Source of the DNA: Phytohabitans maris
GTDB taxonomy: Bacteria > Actinomycetota > Actinomycetes > Mycobacteriales > Micromonosporaceae
Length of the DNA: 64,000 nucleotides
Reading direction: 5' to 3'
NCBI RefSeq assembly: GCF_031085175.1
Contig: NZ_JAVHUY010000050.1
Location: forward strand, 1-64,000
The translations under genes were made by a program, and so were the position numbers. Shown piece after piece: positions 21,922 through 33,646 of the stretch. Under the pieces are notes generated by a model that saw only the letters and a list, made by a program, of their open reading frames with translations, made no database searches and was not told the origin of the DNA. Each line of letters begins with the position of its first letter. Position 1 is the stretch's first letter.

Positions 21922-22730
21922 ACGCCGAGCCGCACCGACGCGGTCACCGTGACCGGGCTCGCTCCGCTCCGGAGGGCGGCGGTCGCCGGGACGGTGTGCC
22001 AGGCGCTCGGGCCCATCCCCACCAGGGTGGCCGCCTCCCGCGGGCTGAGCGTCAGCGTGCGGGTGAGCGAGGTCTCCTCGGCGAGCCGGAAGTGCCCCTC
22101 CAGGCTGGCCGCCACCCGCTCGGCCTTCTCCGGGTCGACCTGGAGCAGCGATAGCCGCTCGACAAGCTCCGCCAGGTGGTCGGCGGCGGGTGTCACCACC
22201 AGCAGCACGCCGCCCGGCCGCAGCACCCGGCGAAACTCCGTGCCGTTGCGCGGCGCGAACACGTCCAGCACCACCCCGGCCGACCCGTCCGCCACCGGCA
22301 GCCGGCCCCACGTGTCGCAGAGGGCGGCGCCGGCCCGCGGGTGGGCGCGCGCCGCGCGGCGCAGCGCCGGCTTCGAGACGTCCAGCGCCAGACCGGGCGC
22401 GGCCGGGAGGGCGTCGAGCACCGCGGCCAGGTGCCGGCCGGTGCCAGCGCCGGCGTCCAGGACCAGACCGCCCGGGTACGCGGCACGCGCGGCAGCCGCC
22501 AGGGCGGTCGAGATGAAGTCGTAATGCCCGGCAGCCAGGAACTCGGCCCGCGCCGCGACCATCTCCGCGGTGTCGCCGGTGTGCGGGGAGCGGCCGGTGC
22601 TCAGGTTGACGTACCCCTGGCGGGCGATGTCGAAGCTGTGGCCGCGCGGGCAGCGGAGCACTCCCGGCGCGGCGCCGAGCGGCTCGCCACAAACCGGGCA
22701 CCGCATGTTTGCGAGTACCGGAGCGTCCAT
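21876..22730 (-). CDS. 23S rRNA (guanine-N1)-methyltransferase, RlmA-type
   Basis: 284 aa. An N-terminal zinc finger (RCPVCG, then RCPRGHSFD) precedes the family's GYVNLS motif and a SAM-dependent Rossmann domain with [11 protein letters not shown] at about residues 88-98. These features match RlmA(I)/(II)-TlrB enzymes, which methylate G745 or G748 of 23S rRNA; TlrB-type members confer tylosin resistance, but which base is modified cannot be read here. Start ATG 22730 (alternative 22706, MRCPVC). The start codon lies inside the -10 box of the divergent add gene. Its 3' end overlaps the 3' end of the DUF4272 gene by 46 bases, an unusual tail-to-tail overlap. Confidence 0.85.
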
Positions 22731-22733
22731 AAT
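22728..22733 (+). promoter_or_regulatory. Candidate -10 box (CATAAT) of add, leaderless
   Basis: CATAAT, one mismatch from TATAAT, is followed by 7 nt and the add ATG at 22741. The first three bases are also the reverse complement of the methyltransferase start codon. No Shine-Dalgarno sequence precedes add. Confidence 0.55.
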
Positions 22734-22740
22734 CTTTCCC

Positions 22741-23805
22741 ATGGTCGCAATCGCGTACGAGGACATCGTCAAGGCCCCGAAGGCTCTGTTGCACGACCAC
22801 CTCGACGGCGGGCTCCGCCCGGCGACGATCATCGAGCTGGCGGCCGAGGTCGGCCATCCCCTCCCGGCGACAGAGCCGGACGAACTGGCCAGATGGTTCG
22901 TCAGCGCGTGCGACTCCGGCTCGCTGGAGCGGTACATCGCGACGTTCGAGCACACCGTGGCGGTGATGCAGACCGAGTCGGCGCTGCGGCGGGTGGCCGC
23001 CGAGTGCGCGCTCGACCTGGCCGACGACGGCGTCGTGTACGCGGAGGTCCGCTTCGCCCCCGAGCAGCACCTCAACCGCGGGCTCACGCTGGAGCAGGTG
23101 GTGGAGGCGGTGCTCGCCGGGTTCGCCGAGGGCGCGGAGCGGGCGGCGGCGGCCGGCCGGCCGATCCGGATCGGGACGCTGCTCACCGCGATGCGGCACG
23201 CGGCCCGCTCGATGGAGATCGCCGAGCTGGCGGTCCGCTTCCGGGACACCGGCGTGGTCGGCTTCGACATCGCCGGCGCGGAGGCCGGCTTTCCGCCCAC
23301 CCGGCACCTGGACGCGTTCGAGTACCTCCAGCGGGAGAACTTCCACTTCACCATCCACGCCGGCGAGGCGTTCGGGTTGCCGTCGATCTGGCAGGCGATC
23401 CAGTGGTGCGGCGCCGACCGGCTCGGCCACGGCGTACGGATCGTCGACGACATCACCGGCGGCGTGCTGGGGCGGCTCGCGGCGTACGTGCGGGACAAGC
23501 GGATCCCGCTGGAGCTCTGCCCCTCCTCCAACGTGCAGACCGGCGCGGCTCCCTCGATCGCCGAGCACCCGATCGGCCTGCTGCGCGACCTGCGCTTCCG
23601 GGTCACGGTCAACACCGACAACCGGCTGATGAGCGGCACCTCGATGTCCCGCGAGATGGCGCTGCTGGTGGAGGCGTTCGGATATGGCTGGGCTGAATTG
23701 CAGTGGTTTACGATCAATGCGATGAAGAGCGCTTTTATCCCGTTTGACGAGCGGCTCTCGATCATCAACGAAGTGATCAAGCCGGCGTACGCGAAGTTGT
23801 TGTAA
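22741..23805 (+). CDS. add: Adenosine deaminase
   Basis: Converts adenosine and deoxyadenosine to inosine and deoxyinosine. 354 aa. Zinc-site motif HDHLDGG (His18, His20), the TIHAGEAFG motif with the third zinc His and catalytic Glu, HGVRI with the His that polarises water, and NTDNRLMS carrying the last zinc ligand. All expected residues are present. Start ATG 22741, only 10 bases from the divergent methyltransferase start. Belongs functionally with the transporter, cdd and deoA, though it has its own promoter. Confidence 0.95.
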
Positions 23806-24223
23806 TTCCGTGTCGCTGGCCGTACGGGCAACTGTGGCGATACGGTCAGTCAGGCCGCACCGAGTGGTTACCCGGCGGTATGCACGCAGCGCGTAAACCG
23901 GCACTTCGGCCTTGCCGTCGATGGCCGGTCGGGCAATGGTCGGCACTGCCGCGGCGTCGCCATCCTTGGCGAGGTACTCATCACGGCCCAGGCCTAGCGA
24001 GCAGGACAAGTTGGACAGCGGGTGCGCTCACAATCAGTAGTTGATCGCAGACGCATTGCTATCAATGCTACTTTCGTCCAAATGCGGGGATGGTTAGGGC
24101 GAACCTGGCCTTTCTCTTTGACACGGGTCGTGATGGAATCTCGGGGGTTCGACCCGACCGGGTCGGTCGATGAGCGGTGCCCAGTTTGACGGGCCGGGCG
24201 CCGGAGCTGGAGAGGGCGGTGAC
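23806..24223. other. Non-coding stretch between add and the conservon
   Basis: No supported gene. The 3' two-thirds are relatively AT-rich for this genome (about 24040-24140), as expected for a promoter: TTGATC at 24042-24047 could be a -35 box, with AT-rich sequence (ATCAATGCTACTTT) about 18 nt on. A 16-bp perfect palindrome lies at 24150-24165. The upstream part reads like degraded coding sequence, but no frame is convincing. Confidence 0.5.
24150..24165. promoter_or_regulatory. Palindrome CGACCCG-AC-CGGGTCG before the conservon kinase
   Basis: Perfect 7-bp arms around AC, 58 bases before the preferred GTG start at 24224. It may be an operator or a hairpin in the leader of the conservon mRNA. 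Confidence 0.4.
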
Positions 24224-27200
24224 GTGAGTAAGCAGCCGAAGACGGCGGACTCTGTCATGTCGCGTCTCCGCCGGCCGCTGGGCCGGCTTCGAGATCTTCC
24301 GATCTGGTCCAAGCTTGGCCTGATCATGATCGTGCCCACGCTCGCCACGATCGGCGTCGGCACCAACGGCCTGATCGAGCACCTCGGCACCGCAAACGAC
24401 GCTGACCGCGCGCGCACCCTGTCGCAGCTGTCGGAGGCGTCCGGCGCTCTGGTGCACAACCTGCAAAACGAGCGGGCCGCGGCGGCGATGCTGCTCGGCG
24501 TCCGGGCGAGCGACACCGCCGCCAAGCAGAAGTACAACGAGGCGTACACGAAGGTGCAGCCGACGGTCGACGAGACCAAGCGGCCGTACCAGCAGGAGCG
24601 CAACGCGCTCAACGCCGACGACCTCCCGGTCAACTTCCGTGACGCGCTCACCACGATCGACCAGCGCCTCGCCGACCTGCCCGCGATCCGCAGCCAGGTC
24701 ACCAACGCCAAGCTCCAGCTCAGCCAGGCCAGCAGCAACTACACGACGCTGCTCACCAGCCTGATCTCGGTGCGTGACTCGGCCGCGCAGCTCGCCGGTG
24801 ACACGACGCTCGGTGACCAGATGCGCGCCACGGCGGCGCTCGCCCGCTTCAAGGAGTTCATCTCCCAGGAGCGGATCGTCGGCCTCAACATCATCAGCAC
24901 CGGCACGTTCACGCCCAACCTGCGGACGCAGTACATCGAGACGCAGACCGGGCAGGACCAGGCCGTGCAGGCGTTCAAGGCGGTCGCCACCCGGACCGAC
25001 GCCGAGCTGTTCGACCAGACGGTCGCCGGCTCCGACCTGCGCAAGGTCGAGGGATACGCGGGTTACCTGCAGAGCCGCGACGGCCCCAACATCAGCGACC
25101 GCCCGTTCGACGCGGCGAGCTGGGACAGCGCCCTGCTGGCCAAGGCCGAGCTGGTCCGCAGGGTCGAGACCGCCGTCGACGGCGAGGTCGTTGACCGCGC
25201 CACCACACTGCGTGACCAGGAGTACGAGCAGCTGCTCATCGAGGCCGGCGTGCTGCTCGGCGTCCTCCTGCTCGCCATCCTCTTCGCCTGGGCGGTCGCC
25301 CGCTCGATGGCCCGGTCGCTGCGCGAGCTGCGGCACGGCGCCCTCTCCGTCGCGCAGTACGGGCTGCCCCAGGCGGTCTCCCGGCTCCGTGACCCGGCCC
25401 TGTCCAGCCAGCTCTCGCCGGTGCAGGTGGCCAACCAGATCGCCGAGCCGCTGCCGGTCCGGAGCAAGGACGAGTTCGGGCAGGTGACCGAGGCGTTCAA
25501 CGCGGTCCACCTGGAAGCCGTCCGCACCGCCGCCGAGCAGGCCGCGCTCCGCGCCTCCGTCGCGACGATGTTCGTCAACCTGGCCCGCCGCTCGCAGATC
25601 CTGGTCGACCGGCTGATCGGCCACCTCGACCGGCTGGAGCGCGGCGAGGAAGACCCGGACCGGCTGGCCGAGCTCTTCCAGCTCGACCACCTGGCCACCC
25701 GGATGCGCCGCAACGACGAAAACCTCCTGGTCCTCGCCGGCGCGGACTCCACCCGCGTGCAGCGCGAGCCGGCGGCGCTCATCGACGTGCTGCGCGCGGC
25801 CCAGTCCGAGGTCGAGCACTACACGCGCATCGAGTTCGGCGTGATCGACCGCGACATCGAGGTCGCCTCCAGCGCCGTCAACGACCTGGTCCACCTGGTC
25901 GCCGAGCTGTTCGACAACGCCACCGCGTTCTCGCCGCCCGACTCGCACGTCATGGTCGAGGCGCGCCGCGTCGGCGACCGCGCCGTGCTGTACGTCGAGG
26001 ACCGCGGCATCGGCATCACCCCCGACCAGCTGCACGACCTCAACGAGCGGCTCGCCACGCCGCCCATGGTCGACGTCGCCGTCTCCCGGATGATGGGCCT
26101 GGTCGTGGTCGCGCGGCTGGCCGCACGGCATGGCGTCAAGGTCGAGTTGCGGCCGGCCAGCGAGCGGGGCACCGTCGCCGATGTGACGCTGCCGACGTCG
26201 GTCCTCGTGCCCCGGGCCCTGTCCGGGCGCAACGAGCCGGGCGCGGCTCCGTTCCAGCCCACGATGGTGCCGCCGGCCGGGCAGCCGCCGCTACCGCCAC
26301 CGCCGGTGCAGCGCCCACCGGTCGGCGCGACGCCGCTGGCCCTGGAGAGCGGCCCGACCTCGGCACCCCCGGGACGCCCGTTCGACCCCGCACCGCTCAA
26401 CGGCGGTCGTATGGTCGGGCCGTCGGGTCAGCCGCAGCGGTCGATGCCGGCCTGGTCCGACCTCACCGGCGCCGCCTCGGCGGCCAACGGCGGCACCAAC
26501 GGCGCGGGCGGCACGTTCAGCCCGCGTACGCCGACCAACGGCCAGTCGAGCGACCCGCTGCCGCAGCGGCGGGGCACCGACCACTGGACCGTCGACGGCG
26601 AGGTGACCGGCGGCACTCCGGCGCCCGGCATCCCGCGGCAGATCCCGGCCAACCCGGAGACCCAGACGCGTGGCGGCGGCTTCCCGCCGGTTCCCCCGGT
26701 GTCCGCGCCGCCCGTACCGCCGGTCTCCGCCCCGCCGATCCCGCCGCAGGCGCAGGTGCCGCCACCCGCTTCGGCCCCGCCGGCGCCGCCCGTGGCCCCA
26801 CCCGGCCCGGCCGTTCCGCCCTCTTCGGCACCGCCGGTGTGGCCGCCGGTCAGCGCGCCGGAGACCGGACCGACCACGACGCCGCCGGTCCCGGAGACGC
26901 TCGCCGCCGCGCTCGACATGACCGCCGAGCTGCCCAAGGTCAACAATCGCAACGAGTCCGGCGCCAAGCCGCCGGCCGCGACCACTCCACAAGCGACCGC
27001 CCCGCCCGAGGCCACGCCGGCCCCGGCCGCGGCGACCGGGCCCACGACCGCTGCGACGGCCGGAGCGGCCGGCCAGCCGCGGTTCGCCGACGAGACCATG
27101 GAACTGCCGATCTTCCGCGAGCTGGAGTCGGCCTGGTTCCGCACCCGGCGTGCTGTGCCAGAGGAGCCGCGCACGCCCGCACCAAACGGTGACTTCGTCA

Positions 27201-27676
27201 CCGTGGACGCCGCACGACCGGCCAGCCCAGCCCCGCAGGGCGCCCCGACGGCCAGCGCGACCACCGCCACACCGGTGCCCGCCGCGGCCACCCGCCCCTC
27301 CGTTCCGCCACCCTCCGGCGGCAACGGCAACGGAGCGGCGCGCAGGGAGCCCGTGGGCGGCTGGCAGACCGCCGCCGACGACGGCTGGCGCGCGGCCACC
27401 GCCGCTGCCGAGCGGCCGGCATCCGAGACCACCCAGGCCGGGCTCCCCAAGCGGGTGCCGATGGCTCAGCTTGTGCCCGGTGGGGTGGAGAAGGGCGCCG
27501 CTGCTGTGCAGCGTCGTACACCAGAGGCGGTGCGCGGTCTGCTGTCCGCGTACCACCGCGGGGTGCAGCGCGGTCGCACGCACCCCAAGGACGACCAGCC
27601 GGCGACGTCGGGGGAGACCTCGCAGACCGGTTTGGGCCCCGCGGCCGGGAGCGGCCAGAAGGAGCATGAGGGATGA
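24224..27676 (+). CDS. cvnA: Conservon sensor kinase (CvnA-type, NIT + HATPase)
   Basis: Membrane sensor of about 1150 aa. TM1 near residues 30-47 ([16 protein letters not shown]), an extracytoplasmic nitrate/nitrite-sensing (NIT-like) helical domain (~50-335), TM2 (~337-360, [17 protein letters not shown]), then an HATPase_c domain with N-box [12 protein letters not shown] (~561-572) and G-box EDRGIGIT (~590). A dimerisation His is not obvious, as is usual in this family. About 430 Pro/Ala-rich residues lead to a conserved tail with SAWF, GLPKRVP and [12 protein letters not shown] 24224 is preferred for its GGAGAGGG site; ATG 24170 is possible. Stop overlaps cvnB by 4 bases. It probably signals through the downstream GTPase. 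Confidence 0.9.
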
Positions 27677-28077
27677 CAACAACGCAGGATCTCGGCTGGC
27701 TACTCGCCAACTTCGCCGATCGGGTGCCGGGCGTCGCGCACGCGGTCGCGGTGTCCGCCGACGGTCTGCTGCTGGCAGCGTCGCGTGATCTCCCGCGCGA
27801 CCGGGCAGACCAGCTCGCGGCGATCGCGTCGGGGCTCGTCAGCCTCACCCAGGGGGCCGCGCGGTGCTTCGAAGGCGGCGCGGTGCTCCAGACAGTGGTC
27901 GAGATGGACAACGGCTTCCTGTTCCTGATGTCGATCTCGGACGGCTCCTCCTTCGCCGTGCTGGCGGCGCGCAGCTGCGACGTCGGCCAGGTCGGCTACG
28001 AGATGGCGCTGCTCGTCGACCGGGTAGGCGACGCGCTGACGCCAGCTCCGCGCACGACCGCAGGCATGTTGGGTTGA
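27673..28077 (+). CDS. cvnB: Conservon roadblock/LC7 protein (CvnB-type)
   Basis: 134 aa Roadblock/LC7-domain protein, like the regulators of small Ras-type GTPases. The fold begins at [29 protein letters not shown] and ends in the [12 protein letters not shown] helix. Start ATG 27673 overlaps the kinase stop (ATGA) and has GGAGCATGAGGG upstream. In conservons the kinase, roadblock protein, DUF742 protein and GTPase are thought to form a membrane-associated complex resembling eukaryotic G-protein signalling (known from Streptomyces cvn9); here that is inferred from gene order. Confidence 0.92.
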
Positions 28078-28163
28078 GCGCACAAGCGGTCCGACATAGG
28101 GGGCCGCAGGTGCACGGATTCTGTTCGAGATTTGTTCGGGTCGACAGGAGGGGGTGAACGGCG

Positions 28164-28544
28164 ATGATGGCGGAACGCGACGAGCCGACCGGTGCGCTGG
28201 TCCGACCGTACGCCGTTACCCGCGGCCGGACCCGTCCCAGGCTCGAGATCGCGCTCGAGGCGCTCGTGGAGACCACCGTAAGGGGCCGGTCCGCGGGCGC
28301 TACCAAGGGCGGTCAGGGCCGGGAGCATCAATACATCGCCGCGCTCTGTGACGGGCGGCTGCAATCGCTTGCGGAGATCGCCGCGCGGATGCAGCTTCCG
28401 CTCGGGGTGGCCCGGGTCCTCATCGCCGACATGGCCGCCGACGGCCTGCTCGCGGTGTACGAGCCGACCTCCCTCGACGACGCCAACGACGCGGTGGGCA
28501 CTGAACTGCTGGAGAGGGTGCTGAGTGGACTTCGCAGGCTCTGA
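28164..28544 (+). CDS. cvnC: Conservon DUF742 protein (CvnC-type)
   Basis: 126 aa DUF742 protein with a winged-helix-like core. It has the usual RPYAVTRGRTRP start, followed by LEIALEALVETT, then CDGRLQSLAEIAARMQLPLGVARVLIADMAADGLLAVYEP. The ATG at 28164 (or 28167) has a strong AGGAGGGGG at 28147-28155. It overlaps the GTPase gene by 20 bases. The 86-base gap after cvnB is the longest in this operon. Cellular role is unknown beyond membership of the conservon complex. Confidence 0.92.
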   Translation: MMAERDEPTGALVRPYAVTRGRTRPRLEIALEALVETTVRGRSAGATKGGQGREHQYIAALCDGRLQSLAEIAARMQLPLGVARVLIADMAADGLLAVYEPTSLDDANDAVGTELLERVLSGLRRL

Positions 28545-29136
28545 CATGTCGCATCGCCCGCCGCTGACGGGGCGCGTGACGTCGGCGAAGATCGTCATCG
28601 CCGGTGGGTTCGGCGTTGGTAAGACGACGCTGGTCGGCTCGGTTTCGGAGATCACGCCGCTGACCACCGAGGCGATCATGACGTCGGCCGGTGTCGGCGT
28701 CGGCGACACCCGGCAGGTGCCGGGTAAGACGACCACCACCGTGGCCATGGACTTCGGCCGCATTTCGATCGACCGCGACCTGATCCTGTACCTGTTCGGC
28801 ACACCCGGCCAGACCCGGTTCTGGTTCATGTGGGACGAGCTGGTGCGGGGAGCCATCGGCGCGGTCGTGCTCGTAGACACGCGCCGACTCGCCGACTGCT
28901 TCGCGGCGATCGACTTCTTCGAGCACCGCCGGCTGCCATACCTGGTGGCCATCAACTGCTTCGATGGCATGCAGTACCACGACCCGCAGGATGTGCGCGA
29001 CGCGCTCGCCATCTCCAGCGAGATCCCCGTGGTCAGCTGCGACGCCCGCAACCGCGAGTCCACAAAGCACGTTCTCATCTCCCTTGTGGAGTACGTGCTG
29101 AGCATGCGCCGCTCCCGCGCGGTCGCACCCGCCTGA
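28525..29136 (+). CDS. cvnD: Conservon small GTPase (CvnD-type)
   Basis: 203 aa ATP/GTP-binding protein of the conservon/MglA-like group. P-loop GGFGVGKTT at residues 27-35, switch region with KTTTTVAMDFGRI, the LFGTPGQTRFWFMWDELVRG segment in place of the Ras DTAGQ, and a base-recognition loop NCFDG in place of NKxD. Start GTG 28525 is favoured by GGAGAGG 7 nt upstream and overlaps cvnC; ATG 28546 just after the cvnC stop is an alternative. Last gene of the operon. Confidence 0.93.
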   Translation: MDFAGSDMSHRPPLTGRVTSAKIVIAGGFGVGKTTLVGSVSEITPLTTEAIMTSAGVGVGDTRQVPGKTTTTVAMDFGRISIDRDLILYLFGTPGQTRFWFMWDELVRGAIGAVVLVDTRRLADCFAAIDFFEHRRLPYLVAINCFDGMQYHDPQDVRDALAISSEIPVVSCDARNRESTKHVLISLVEYVLSMRRSRAVAPA

Positions 29137-29752
29137 CGGACTCGCGCCACCTCGCCGCCGGCGGGCCAACGCCCGTCGGCGGCCGTGTGCTGCCCAGACT
29201 CCGCAACGTCCACTGTGGGCAATGCGCGACGCGGCATCGTTGCTCCGCGGCCTCACCCTCCGCGGTAGGCAACCCACTCCACGCGTTCGACCCGCTGATC
29301 GTCAGGCTGCGCCCGCTGTAGGCGCCTGCGCACGAGGGCTGAACGTCGCGGAGCAAGATCCCGACAAAGTCCCTGACTTTGCTGCCTCGCCCGCGGCCCG
29401 TAGCACCAAAGTCAGGGATTTTGCTGCCACCCCGGCCAAACCCGGCCCGGCGGCGGCTGCCCTGGAGTTGGTGACGCGAAAGCGTAGGTGCGGCGCGGAA
29501 ACCGTGACGGGCCCGCCTTCCAGGGACCAGCGGCCGAAGGCCGGTGAGCGTTGGTGGCCACCGGAACTAGCGAGGGGCGATGGGTGACCACGAAGCACGG
29601 CGTGCGGCGATGTCGACCTGAGCCTTCGGGACAGGCCATCGGCTCTGCCTCCCGGACGTTCGGACCGGTGGTGAAGCTCGCCGAGCGGCATCGACCCGGG
29701 TGCCGACCACCATCCTGGCGGCGCCGCCGACCATGCTGGCGGGGCGGCAGCG
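29137..29752. other. Non-coding stretch between conservon and the facing gene
   Basis: About 615 bases between convergent genes with no supported coding frame. It holds two related 17-bp dyads at 29365-29423. The open frame at 29222-29587 looks like repeat-derived translation. No tRNA or IS end was found. Confidence 0.55.
29365..29423. repeat. Two tandem copies of a 22-bp palindromic repeat, 42 bp apart
   Basis: Copy 1 is CAAAGTC-CCT-GACTTTG (29365-29381) and copy 2 is CAAAGTC-AGG-GATTTTG (29407-29423); both are followed by CTGCC. The core is a perfect dyad in copy 1 and one mismatch away in copy 2. The start-to-start spacing is 42 bp, about four helical turns. Confidence 0.75.
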
Positions 29753-29785
29753 AAAAGGCGCCGGACCGTGCGGGTCCGGCGCCTT
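29753..29785 (-). terminator. Rho-independent terminator of the 919-residue protein gene
   Basis: AAGGCGCCGGACC (29755-29767) pairs perfectly with GGTCCGGCGCCTT (29773-29785), a 13-bp stem with a 5-nt loop. On the minus strand it is followed by TTTTCG. It lies 11 bases past the stop codon. Confidence 0.8.
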
Positions 29786-29796
29786 CCGACGATGGG

Positions 29797-32556
29797 TCAG
29801 GAGCGGTAGCCCGCCGAGCGGTACTCGTCTTCGCGGCCCACGGAGTCGCGGCTGAAGTCCCAGCCGCCGGCCGACTCGCGGCCCGGGCGGCCGCCGACCG
29901 CGTACCCGCCGATCTCCTGACCGCGACGCCAGCCGCGGAAGTAGCCGGTGGTGTGGGCGGCGATGCTCTGCGCGTCGCGGACGATGCGCAGCGGGCGCTC
30001 CTCGCGGGGCGGGAGGGCGGAGCCCGGCACCAGGTTGGCCTGGGGGACGCGGCGGGGGAGCCCCGAATTCGTCTCGGCGCCCACGGAGGGCGTCGCGGCC
30101 TGGGACGCGGCCTGCCAGCCGGTGTCGGCGGAGGAGGTCCAGTCGAGCTGGTTTTCTTCGTCCGGGTGGCCGACGAACCAGGCGGAACGGGTCTGGGCGA
30201 AGATCAGCAGGTCGCCGTCGCCCTCCTCGGCCACCGGCACGGCACTGCGCTCCACGGCGCGGCGAGACCGGGCCGTACGGGCACCGCGGTCGCTCGTGTC
30301 GGTGTCGACCAGGCGCAGCGACGGCGCGTCCAGCGCGGTCGTGCCGCTGAGCGGGCGGTCGTCGAGCGCGCGGTCGGACAGCGGCGGCGGCTCCACCAGG
30401 CGCAGCATCGGCGGCTCCTGGGGCAGGTCGTCCGCCTGCCACGGCGGCTTTATGCGGCCGTCCGTGGCGGCCGGCTGAGCGGGCCGGTCGAGCTCGCTGT
30501 AGCCCGAGTAGGGGCGGTCGCCGTTTGCCCGCTGAGGCAAGCCCGGCCGGGCCGCCGGCTCGGCCTCGCGACGCGACCGGGCGGCTGGCTCAGCGTCGAC
30601 GCGCGGCCGGGCAGGGGGCTCGGCGTCGAGGCGGGGGCGCGAGGGCTCGGCGTCCGCGCGGGAACGGTCGCTGTCGGACGAGTTGACCAGGGGCCAAGCG
30701 GCGCGCGAGCCGGGCTCGGGCGCGTGTCGGGGCAAGGGCACGCTCAAATCCGTAGCACCAAAACCACCCTGAGTGGGCGCGCCACTCTGGTCGGGTGACG
30801 GGCCGTCGTGCCGGGTGCTGGGGCGCGGCGGGATCGGCGTGGGGCGCTGGCGCTCGGCACGGGCGCTGTTGATCGCGGCCGTCGTGAGCGTGGCGCGGAA
30901 CGGCTCGCCGCTGTCGGCCGGTGCCAGGCCGCGCTGGCTCGGCACCACGGCGGCGGGCGCGATCGGCGTGATGCCGGGCGGCGGGGGCGGCGGCGCGGAG
31001 ACCGGCCGGTTGCTCACCGGCTCGGGGGCGCGTGGCGGCTCCACGCGGGGCGGCTGCGGCGTGCGAGGCGGCTCCGGCCGGGACAGCGGCATCGCGATCT
31101 GGGCGGTGTCGGACATGCCACCGCCGCCGTACACCGTAGGGGTTGCGGGCCGGGCCGGCGGTGCCGACGAGCGGATCGGCAGCGGGGTCGGTGCGCTGAT
31201 CGCGGCCGGCGCGACCGGCGGTCGGCTCGCCGGGGGTGGCGCGACCGGCGGGCGCACGGCCGGTCCGGCCGAAGCGGCCGGGGCCAGCGGCGGTGCCGAA
31301 GCCGGCGCGACCGGCGGTGCCGAGGCCGGCGTGGCCACTGGCGCCGGGTGGGTGGCCGGCTCGGCGTGGCGGCGGCCGGTGTCTCCGCCACGCGCGGCGG
31401 CGGGGCGGCTGACCGGCGGGGGCGCGACCGGTGGGCGGGTAACCGGGGAGGGGGCCACCGGCGGCGTCGTCACGGCGTGCGGGATCGCGGGAGCGGCGCT
31501 GGCAGCCGCGGGCTCCGGGCGGGCCCGGCGCCCGACGCGGGTCGGCGCGGGCTCCTCGGCCGGCGGGCGGACCGCGTGCAGGCCGGCACCGGCCGGGGTG
31601 GCCTGTGGCGCGCTGGTGGCGCCGGCCCGGCGCAACGTGCTGCGCCGCCCGGTGCTCGCCGGAGGAGCGGTCAGGCGGGCGCTGAGCGTGGAGATGAGGG
31701 CGTCGCAGCCGAGGTCGCAGGCGCGCACGGCGGCGACCGCCTGCCGCACGGTCTCGGAGATCGCCGGCACCAGCGCCTTGCTCGTGCTGCCGCGGCGCGG
31801 GGTCTCGGCGATCGCCACGCGCAGTGCGGTGATCTTTTCGGAGACCGTCTCGGCGTCGGCCACGCCTTCGGCCGCGAGCTGGCCGATCACCGCGTCGGCG
31901 GCGGAGGTGGACTCGCGCCCCCGCCCGCCGGCCGTGCCGTTGAGCAGGCTCGGCTCGGGCAGCGCGTCGAGCACCGCGAGCGACACCGGCTCGGCCGGGT
32001 CGGGGTAGGCCCGCAGGGCCGCCGGGTAGAGCTCGCGAAGCACCTCGCGCAGCGCGACAGCGGCGGAGAGCCGGCCGTTGCAGAGTGCGGCGTGCGCGGC
32101 GAGCACCGGCTTGTACGACAAGAGGTCGCGCGGCACGGGGAGGGCGACCGCGGAGAGGGCACCGGCCTGGAGGGCACGCGCGAGGCCGACCGCACGCCGC
32201 TCGGCGGCGGGAGACTCCATCTCCTCTACCGATTCGTCATCGGCAAAGCGCTCTGCGTAATCGTCGACCGCGTCGTCATCCGCGACGGCGAGCAGGCGTC
32301 CAGCTGCGGTGAGGAGCGACGTGACCAGGTGATCATCGCTGTCCGCGGCGATCGCGACCCCGGTCGGCCCGCTGGAACGCTCCACGAGCAGCGCACCCAG
32401 CTGGGCATAGCCCGCCGGGTCGTCGCTGACCTCGCAGACGTCGAGCAGCCGCCCCGCGTCGTCGACCACGGCGACCGTCAGGCGCGACTCAGCCGAAGCC
32501 GCTCGCGCTGTCGGATCCGCCGACGCCAGACCGCAGTACACGCGCACGAGCGCCAC
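29797..32556 (-). CDS. Large Pro-rich protein with IS110-like N-terminus and conservon-kinase-like tail
   Basis: 919 aa, function unknown. Residues 1-310 form a conserved Ala/Leu-rich region starting MALVRVYCGLASADP that loosely resembles the RuvC-like part of IS110 (DEDD) transposases (GRLLDVCEVSDDPAGYAQL; GVAIAAD), but the catalytic acidic residues are not in place and no insertion-element ends are seen. Residues ~320-770 are low-complexity Pro/Ala/Arg. The last ~130 residues carry IFAQTRSAWF, then SADTGWQAA, GLPRRVPQANLVPG and YFRGWRRGQ, in the same order as the tail of the adjacent conservon kinase. It is convergent with the conservon and followed by a good terminator. Confidence 0.75.
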   Translation of the reverse strand: MALVRVYCGLASADPTARAASAESRLTVAVVDDAGRLLDVCEVSDDPAGYAQLGALLVERSSGPTGVAIAADSDDHLVTSLLTAAGRLLAVADDDAVDDYAERFADDESVEEMESPAAERRAVGLARALQAGALSAVALPVPRDLLSYKPVLAAHAALCNGRLSAAVALREVLRELYPAALRAYPDPAEPVSLAVLDALPEPSLLNGTAGGRGRESTSAADAVIGQLAAEGVADAETVSEKITALRVAIAETPRRGSTSKALVPAISETVRQAVAAVRACDLGCDALISTLSARLTAPPASTGRRSTLRRAGATSAPQATPAGAGLHAVRPPAEEPAPTRVGRRARPEPAAASAAPAIPHAVTTPPVAPSPVTRPPVAPPPVSRPAAARGGDTGRRHAEPATHPAPVATPASAPPVAPASAPPLAPAASAGPAVRPPVAPPPASRPPVAPAAISAPTPLPIRSSAPPARPATPTVYGGGGMSDTAQIAMPLSRPEPPRTPQPPRVEPPRAPEPVSNRPVSAPPPPPPGITPIAPAAVVPSQRGLAPADSGEPFRATLTTAAINSARAERQRPTPIPPRPSTRHDGPSPDQSGAPTQGGFGATDLSVPLPRHAPEPGSRAAWPLVNSSDSDRSRADAEPSRPRLDAEPPARPRVDAEPAARSRREAEPAARPGLPQRANGDRPYSGYSELDRPAQPAATDGRIKPPWQADDLPQEPPMLRLVEPPPLSDRALDDRPLSGTTALDAPSLRLVDTDTSDRGARTARSRRAVERSAVPVAEEGDGDLLIFAQTRSAWFVGHPDEENQLDWTSSADTGWQAASQAATPSVGAETNSGLPRRVPQANLVPGSALPPREERPLRIVRDAQSIAAHTTGYFRGWRRGQEIGGYAVGGRPGRESAGGWDFSRDSVGREDEYRSAGYRS

Positions 32557-32617: not shown

Positions 32618-33646
32618 TCAGTCGCGCCAGTCCACAGCGGCAGAGATCTTGCCGATAATCGTGCGCCAGCCGAGACTTGCCTGTTGTGCCCCGATTTTCT
32701 TCAGCCGCCGGCGACCCCGGAAAGCGCCGATTCCACCACCGGCGGCGGAACGAAGTGCCTCGTCAAGGTCATCGAGCGGGGATCCGGGGGACAGGGCGGT
32801 AAGGACTGGTGTGAGGCGCAGGGCATACGACAGGTCGCGTGCCGCCTCACCGGCTTCGATCAGCAGGTTGAAGTCCCAGGTGTCGTGCCCGCCGCGCAGG
32901 TTTTCCACGACCAGGTCGAGCTCGTACGAGTCGTCGTCCGAGGGAGCCACGTCGGCCGGCTGGATCCGCTCGACCACCTCGGCCCAGCCGTCCACCTGGG
33001 CGAGGTCGTTGGGAGCGCCGGAGCGCACGAAGGTCACCAGCGACTCGGGGCTCTTGAAGAGCAGCAGCTTGCCCCGGTGGCTCAGGAAGACCGGCACCTC
33101 TTCGGCCGGCGCTTCCTCCTCCTCTTCTTCCTCGTCTTCGAAGTCTTCGGCCGAGGGCTCGTCAGCCTCGTCCGAGTCCGAGTCCGAGTCCGAGTCGTCC
33201 GAGTCCGAGTCCGAGTCCGAGTCGTCCGAGTCCGAGCCGGAGTCGTCGCGGGCGTGCCGGCCGCGCCGCTTGGCCTCCTCGGCGTCCTCCTCGTCCTCGT
33301 CGCCCGGGAAGTCGTCGTCGAGGATCACCACGGTGTCGTCGTCGTCATCCAGCATCGCGTGCCTGGCCTTCGCGGCGAACGGGTCGTCTTCGTCGCGGTC
33401 GCCGATGTCGGTCGGGGTCAGCGAGGTGGAGAGCCGGTACGCCCGGAGCGTGTAGCCGACGCCGGACGGGAGCGCGATCTCGACCGGATCGATCCTGGTG
33501 TCGGCCCACAGCGACGACGGGCCGCCCGACGAGGCATCCTCTGCCTCTGCCTCTTCCTCTTCGTCGACCTCCTCGAGATCCTCGTCGATCTCGAGGTCGG
33601 GCTCGGGCTTGTCGGCGTCCGGCCGGTTGGGCGACTGGCGGGCCAC
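32618..33646 (-). CDS. Very acidic conserved protein with Ser-Asp repeats (primosomal-protein-like)
   Basis: 342 aa, cytoplasmic. Residues ~15-40 and ~95-195 are strongly acidic; the second stretch includes an (SD)n tract and a Glu run. The C-terminal 150 residues form a conserved basic-ended domain (VPVFLSHRGKLLLFKSPESLVTFVRSGAPNDL, then ELDLVVENLRGGHDTWD and GFRGRRRLKKIGAQ, ending WRTIIGKISAAVDWRD). I recall relatives annotated as primosomal proteins, but see no primase or helicase motif, so the function is open. The SD tract is encoded by a hexanucleotide tandem repeat. It is 61 bases upstream of the 919-residue protein gene on the same strand, so the two may be co-transcribed. Confidence 0.75.
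   Translation of the reverse strand: MARQSPNRPDADKPEPDLEIDEDLEEVDEEEEAEAEDASSGGPSSLWADTRIDPVEIALPSGVGYTLRAYRLSTSLTPTDIGDRDEDDPFAAKARHAMLDDDDDTVVILDDDFPGDEDEEDAEEAKRRGRHARDDSGSDSDDSDSDSDSDDSDSDSDSDEADEPSAEDFEDEEEEEEEAPAEEVPVFLSHRGKLLLFKSPESLVTFVRSGAPNDLAQVDGWAEVVERIQPADVAPSDDDSYELDLVVENLRGGHDTWDFNLLIEAGEAARDLSYALRLTPVLTALSPGSPLDDLDEALRSAAGGGIGAFRGRRRLKKIGAQQASLGWRTIIGKISAAVDWRD
33169..33240. repeat. Hexanucleotide tandem repeat (GTCCGA)n in the acidic protein gene
   Basis: About 12 near-perfect units of GTCCGA, interrupted twice by GTC, encode the Ser-Asp tract on the minus strand. All units keep the reading frame. Confidence 0.8.

Follow-up and report, generated by a model that had tools for sequence, protein, structure and literature searches.

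Why does a protein that is not a kinase end in the same way as the sensor kinase of the signalling operon that it faces? The question is raised by a stretch of 64,000 nucleotides of Phytohabitans maris DNA (the window), in which a conservon, an actinobacterial G-protein system (AGPS), occupies the forward strand at 24170-29136. Using Pfam we find kinase, roadblock, DUF742 and GTPase genes on one strand and in the standard order: CvnA (24170..27676; 1168 residues with a Pro-rich C-terminal region) matches NIT at 6.3e-42 and HATPase_c at 2e-14, as well as HAMP at 1.5e-4, which is under HAMP's cut-off; CvnB (27673..28077) matches Robl_LC7 (roadblock/LC7) at 7.5e-23; CvnC (28164..28544) matches DUF742 at 5.4e-30; and CvnD (28525..29136), a small GTPase, matches ATP_bind_1 at 4.8e-33, with weaker matches to Ras and GTP_EFTU under their cut-offs. 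In the domains and order of these four genes the locus is like a standard CvnA-CvnB-CvnC-CvnD conservon; it differs in an extra convergent gene, which faces the CvnD side from the reverse strand (29797..32556). Its product of 919 residues, here called B, consists of a catalytically dead IS110 domain, a Pro-rich linker and a CvnA-type tail, as read from its translation and from profile searches. B is not a kinase (no Pfam match to HATPase, HAMP or NIT at E-values up to 1).

The likeness between the two C-termini had been described in an earlier note, made from the letters alone, as four motifs in the same order, and all four are found in the translations close to where they had been placed. In CvnA (forward strand) these islands are the SAWF segment of 12 residues (27104..27139; translation and profile), AADDGWRAA (27371..27397), the GLPxRVP segment of 14 residues (27440..27481) and YHRGVQRG (27551..27574); in B (reverse strand) they read LLIFAQTRSAWF (30175..30210; translation and profile), SADTGWQAA (30106..30132, a hand count on the translation), GLPRRVPQANLVPG (30022..30063) and YFRGWRRG (29920..29943). 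B carries every element of the CvnA tail as we define it here (SAWF / DxGW / GLPxRVP / YxRGxxRG), and the kinases have a long spacer of variable length between SAWF and the Trp-Ala island, B a short one. Alignment of CvnA residues 1061-1145 with B residues 796-890 yields a score of 126 (against a mean of 30 and a maximum of 61 for shuffled sequences, with 0/2000 reaching it), and the SAWF segments aligned alone score 38 against a shuffle maximum of 36 (again 0/2000). The Pro-rich linkers, which had been counted among the matching features, have to be dropped as evidence: they align by composition only. This composition, both C-termini being rich in Pro and Ala, is what would speak for a resemblance due to low-complexity sequence or chance. 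That reading is refuted by the shuffle tests and deserves practically no credence; a profile built from B tails only also finds none of 610 shuffled C-termini below an E-value of 1e-3. The tails of CvnA and B are homologous and form an ordered C-terminal module common to both proteins.

The same B-tail profile matches 39 of 42 CvnA kinases of the family at E<1e-5, at loci that were picked via the B N-terminus, that is, independently of the tail; L051, L084 and L097, where the kinase reading frame ends before the tail, are presumably the three left unmatched. Among the kinase reading frames from class-wide loci the profile matches 69 of 80, a count that is partly circular because those loci were selected with a profile including B tails. 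Tails could be extracted by motif from 52 of the 60 entries in the B list (consensus LLIFxxxxSAWF, W-x-x-x-D-x-GW-x-A, GLP[RK]RxPxANLVPG and YFRGWxR[GA]), and the same islands end the CvnA kinases. The eight entries without an extracted tail are fragments at contig ends (L053, L071, L073 and L078), a truncated frame (L084), an odd reading frame (L104) and two true transposases (L107 and L109). The frame at L104:4191-5588 joins an unrelated N-terminal part to a B-like middle and has no tail. In some assemblies reading frames are split (CvnA in L051/L097, L084, L158 and L191, and B also in L084), which could be due to sequencing errors in GC-rich repeats or to real breaks.

What the earlier note had missed about its two-protein module is the nature of the rest of B: ahead of its Pro-rich low-complexity linker (30211..31716, reverse strand) this protein carries a catalytically dead IS110 domain and is, as far as sampled, confined to one family. 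The first ~280 residues of B (31717..32556, reverse strand) are homologous to the DEDD, RuvC-like domain of IS110 transposases (PF01548), with the conserved segments in the same order. A profile of the B N-terminus finds four IS110 transposase reading frames at E-values between 2.5e-14 and 9.7e-36, against 0.03 for the best among 2000 shuffled sequences (hmmsearch), and profile-profile comparison of B N-termini with IS110 gives a probability of 99.4% over 242 columns (hhalign). The Pfam model PF01548 is weak on B itself (0.18 for the full length, 0.022 for the N-terminus); among its orthologs 5 of 11 are matched at E-values up to 1, the best at 1.2e-10. In an alignment of 52 B rows, in which 1 of 4 control transposases is misaligned at the first Asp, no row retains the first catalytic Asp and the third and fourth Asp are each retained in 4; the Glu column is uncertain (Asp in 44 rows, Glu in 2). 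IS110 transposases have a second transposase domain with a catalytic Ser. In B no Pfam match to such a domain is found, and the linker and tail stand there instead. Judged by these comparisons, B is a catalytically dead IS110 derivative, which differs from the transposases in its lost catalytic residues, the absence of the second domain, its near-single copy number and its fixed neighbourhood. Structure prediction of the IS110-like domain with AlphaFold2 (4-sequence input) resulted in a pLDDT of 45 and a pTM of 0.41; Foldseek with this model found no PDB match at E<=0.001, and sequence searches of solved structures with the B tail or the IS110-like domain returned nothing credible.

Given its descent from a nucleic-acid enzyme, and the observation that the domain is kept across the family even though catalysis is lost, it might be argued that B acts chiefly as an effector or sensor that binds nucleic acids: the IS110 domain would bind DNA or structured RNA and the tail would tether B to the G-protein complex. 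However, some genera have a highly divergent version of the domain (25-33% identity), and we consider this reading improbable. Slightly less probable again is a related version in which the exapted, dead transposase domain reads DNA or structured RNA and the tail passes this input to the roadblock and GTPase switch.

The conservation of B within its family is close to universal. Its first 290 residues are matched in 100 of 101 Micromonosporaceae genomes and in 43 of 44 genera, the single miss being an assembly of 780 contigs, and nearly all genomes hold one copy in a fixed neighbourhood. Additional weak matches in some genomes are reading frames of ~415-445 residues, namely IS110 transposases (with six identical-scoring copies in G091). 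The regions of the 53 best matches were fetched; the weakest unfetched ones include G069, which was confirmed by profile, and G097, a candidate only. A search with B yielded three named relatives, all of them Micromonosporaceae, with Phytohabitans suffuscus as the best (87% in the best segment, residues 1-919). In an order-wide search of 150 genomes, with 17 candidates scored in each, at least 33 match at 1e-8. The 19 genomes whose match reaches 3e-75 or better all belong to Micromonosporaceae. In other families the best match is at 1.3e-23, and most of the matching reading frames there have the size of a transposase, three being longer (533-629 residues). Within this sample no B ortholog was seen outside Micromonosporaceae, and B appears to be family-specific as far as sampled.

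For the analysis of the neighbourhood 53 rows were tabulated, after seven entries had been dropped (L053, L071, L073, L078, L104, L107 and L109). A SatS-like gene (32618..33646, reverse strand; NCBIfam SatS at 1.1e-9, with 37.8 bits against a cut-off of 700) is the conserved upstream neighbour of B: it adjoins B in 51 of the 53 rows (absent in L065 and L103), and the two genes likely belong to the same transcription unit. The SatS-like protein, whose gene immediately precedes B in the same orientation, is acidic and rich in Ser-Asp repeats. On the far side of the conservon lies what we take to be an adenosine-deaminase-like gene (22570-23805); going by mycobacterial gene order, the block of B and conservon seems to lie between satS and add.

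In 19 of the 53 rows B is directly followed, on its own strand, by a second roadblock gene (RB2), whose domain match begins between -21 and +101 bp relative to B's end; at these 19 loci a conservon is present in the fetched stretch in 11 and absent in 8. Nearly all of the 34 rows without RB2 face a convergent conservon, in which CvnD lies at a distance of 43-2180 bp (32 rows and 31 genomes, L051 and L097 being the same record). The remaining two are L052, whose contig stops 175 bp downstream, and L103, a second and divergent copy of B that has a tail, with no RB2 and no conservon in the 13.6 kb downstream. Four RB2 proteins that were compared share 56-63% mutual identity and are 37-44% identical to the CvnB of the window. 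The genome of P. maris itself has no RB2 ortholog: BLAST matches among its roadblock proteins are at most 44% identical (two weak ones are unmatched), and the window CvnB is the best own-genome match for three of the four RB2 queries.

The absence of RB2 goes along with a second character. In the window B ends with a conserved C-terminal extension (GGYAVGGRPGRESAGGWDFSRD...YRSAGYRS; 29800..29919, reverse strand), recognised by locus comparison and in the tree. This extension (GGYAVGGRPGRE...WDF...YRS) is found in 32 of the 34 rows without RB2 and in 1 of the 19 rows with RB2 (L080, which has both); the RB2-less rows that lack it are the truncated L084 and L103. In a tree built from 52 B N-termini a single change suffices for RB2, and a single change for the extension. 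The branch of the RB2 change has a modest support of 79, and the root is a midpoint root only; L091 was left out because its start went unrecognised, and L052 and L103 are unlabelled for RB2, as are L084 and L103 for the extension. The simplest history begins with B and RB2, followed by the gain of the extension and then by the loss of RB2 in the window lineage, always with a conservon beside it. B with RB2 is placed first because RB2 occurs on both sides of the midpoint root; RB2 would then be ancestral, which depends on that root.

Because B in distant relatives pairs with a roadblock protein of its own, the tail is probably a strap for docking on roadblock proteins, and the reading that we favour, with moderate confidence, is that B is a soluble, kinase-less 'pseudo-CvnA' docking on a roadblock dimer, with RB2 as the original partner and, in this genome, probably CvnB. 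B would be a conservon accessory in which a dead IS110 domain replaces the sensor and kinase while the CvnA tail is kept, and the tail would act as a strap: its four short conserved islands, carried by a disordered linker, would dock on the roadblock dimer. The ancestral partner would be RB2, the product of the abutting gene; in the window lineage, where RB2 is lost and B has the conserved extension, B probably uses the CvnB of the convergent conservon, so that CvnB is the proposed docking partner of both tails. B may then compete with the kinase or bridge to it, tuning the regulation of the GTPase CvnD by CvnB. The binding of the tail to roadblock proteins, the sharing of CvnB and the direction of any regulation are what we infer here from gene neighbourhood and conservation. 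A comparable arrangement is LAMTOR1/p18 of Ragulator, a disordered strap that wraps roadblock dimers; it is a works-like analogy to the tail only, one of function and not of sequence.

The earlier note had expected the module to turn up in further actinobacterial proteins near conservon genes, and this is borne out. The tail profile matches at least 76 of 197 genomes of the class at E<=1e-5 (25 candidates scored per genome), of which three are in Micromonosporaceae. Outside the family 75 of 123 match rows were fetched. In 70 of these carriers the tail and the kinase domain share a reading frame; in two more (L158 and L191) the kinase domain lies in an overlapping frame, and the last three (L155, L164 and L204) are fragments located at or close to the end of a contig. 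All 75 except L155 lie beside conservon genes. The tail is a general feature of CvnA, and no further non-kinase carrier was established among the 75 fetched outside the family (of 123 rows). Four candidate tail-only proteins beside roadblock genes (L149, L150, L152 and L153) were rejected, as each begins right at the border of the fetched stretch and is the end of an adjacent kinase.

As to the docking partner, the earlier note had named the roadblock or the GTPase protein. Its idea of a shared docking module is upheld in part, in that the comparisons favour a common partner, the roadblock protein being the first candidate: downstream of the 75 carriers outside the family a roadblock gene is found in 72. 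On the other hand CvnC is as frequent a neighbour (73 of 75) and CvnD is found in 66, several of the misses being contig or stretch ends. The roadblock exceptions are L170 and L221, where the tail kinase is followed by CvnC without a roadblock gene, and L155, a reading frame 50 bases from the contig start with nothing recognised downstream, neither roadblock nor CvnC. In both L170 and L221 CvnC follows the kinase directly, no roadblock or GTPase gene is present in the stretch, and the genomes have several clustered conservon kinases. These counts and the two exceptions are what one would expect if the tail docked on CvnC (DUF742) or on the GTPase CvnD rather than on the roadblock protein, with B recruiting those instead, and CvnA9 is reported to bind CvnC9 besides CvnB9 (PMC8510531, citing Komatsu et al.).

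The genome of P. maris itself argues otherwise. It holds 11 roadblock genes, 8 of which lie directly downstream of a tail kinase (7 at E<1e-3 and one at 0.03), and the roadblock gene is the constant companion of tail kinases in this genome. DUF742, by comparison, is found at only five places: in 5 of the 8 pairs CvnC and CvnD follow, whereas 3 of the 8 are without CvnC (C45, C4 and C18:124 kb), and at these three CvnD was not seen in the 1.4 kb downstream either. Together with the 8 of 19 loci where B and RB2 occur without a conservon in the fetched stretch, these pairs make docking on CvnC or CvnD an unlikely alternative, though the most likely of those considered. Docking on the roadblock protein, our preferred reading, has its own exceptions to account for: besides L170, L221, L155 and the equal constancy of CvnC outside the family, these are L103, the three of the 11 roadblock genes without an adjoining tail protein (the strong C17 and two weak ones), one conservon kinase with a weak tail only, and a protein on C31. 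The latter, of 152 residues (C31:19970-20143; L007, L216:4734-5192), ends in a segment 64% identical to B residues 830-888 (RPLRIVRDAQSIAVHLTGYFRGFRRGQEI), and no conservon or roadblock gene is present in the stretch of 10 kb fetched with it. The tail profile search of this genome found other conservon kinases and kinase-roadblock pairs. C51 and C23 (E-values of 0.13-0.14) were dismissed as chance matches, as the fetched loci L217 and L218 contain no tail match. A CvnA kinase on C13 (C13:127368-127559; L018) has part of the tail, GLRQRVPGAQL ... GVRRA, as two tandem copies, a hint that the docking unit can be repeated.

Coevolution does not single out a partner: by mutual information the tail is linked to the roadblock protein no more strongly than to CvnC, CvnD or the kinase core (91 operons, Neff 27). 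One might also consider a tail that is a localisation signal for the pole, septum or membrane and makes no direct contact with roadblock proteins, the neighbourhood reflecting shared regulation. Aromatic and Arg-rich islands in a disordered region could bind the membrane or cell-division proteins; yet roadblock genes accompany the tail in three contexts (in conservons, in pairs of kinase and roadblock only, and as B with RB2), which makes localisation an improbable explanation.

Among the points in favour of our preferred reading is also a published one: CvnA9 is stated to bind CvnB9 as well as CvnC9 (PMC8510531). A 2026 study (PMC13343842) describes the terminal regions of CvnA8 as unstructured and low in confidence. 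It also reports accessory genes, CvnE (P450) and CvnF (GAF), which were sought at a distance of four genes from cvnA. B is like these in being an extra protein tied to conservons, but differs in that it has no GAF or P450 match (Pfam), is convergent instead of following cvnD at the operon end, and accompanies a kinase with a NIT sensor domain. In the main text of PMC13343842 the words transposase, IS110, tail, C-terminal and disordered are absent, and in the open-licence literature we found no description of the CvnA tail or of B.

The tail offers a concrete, testable contact region between conservon kinases and their roadblock or GTPase partners, and B is a natural case of this tail separated from the kinase, with a roadblock protein of its own in part of the family. 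Micromonosporaceae are a family of natural-product makers. If the favoured reading is true, B would be a further kind of conservon partner, conserved across this one family, and would show how a transposase domain was co-opted into signalling; if the domain does read nucleic acids, the exapted transposase would constitute a nucleic-acid-sensing branch of the conservons in Micromonosporaceae.
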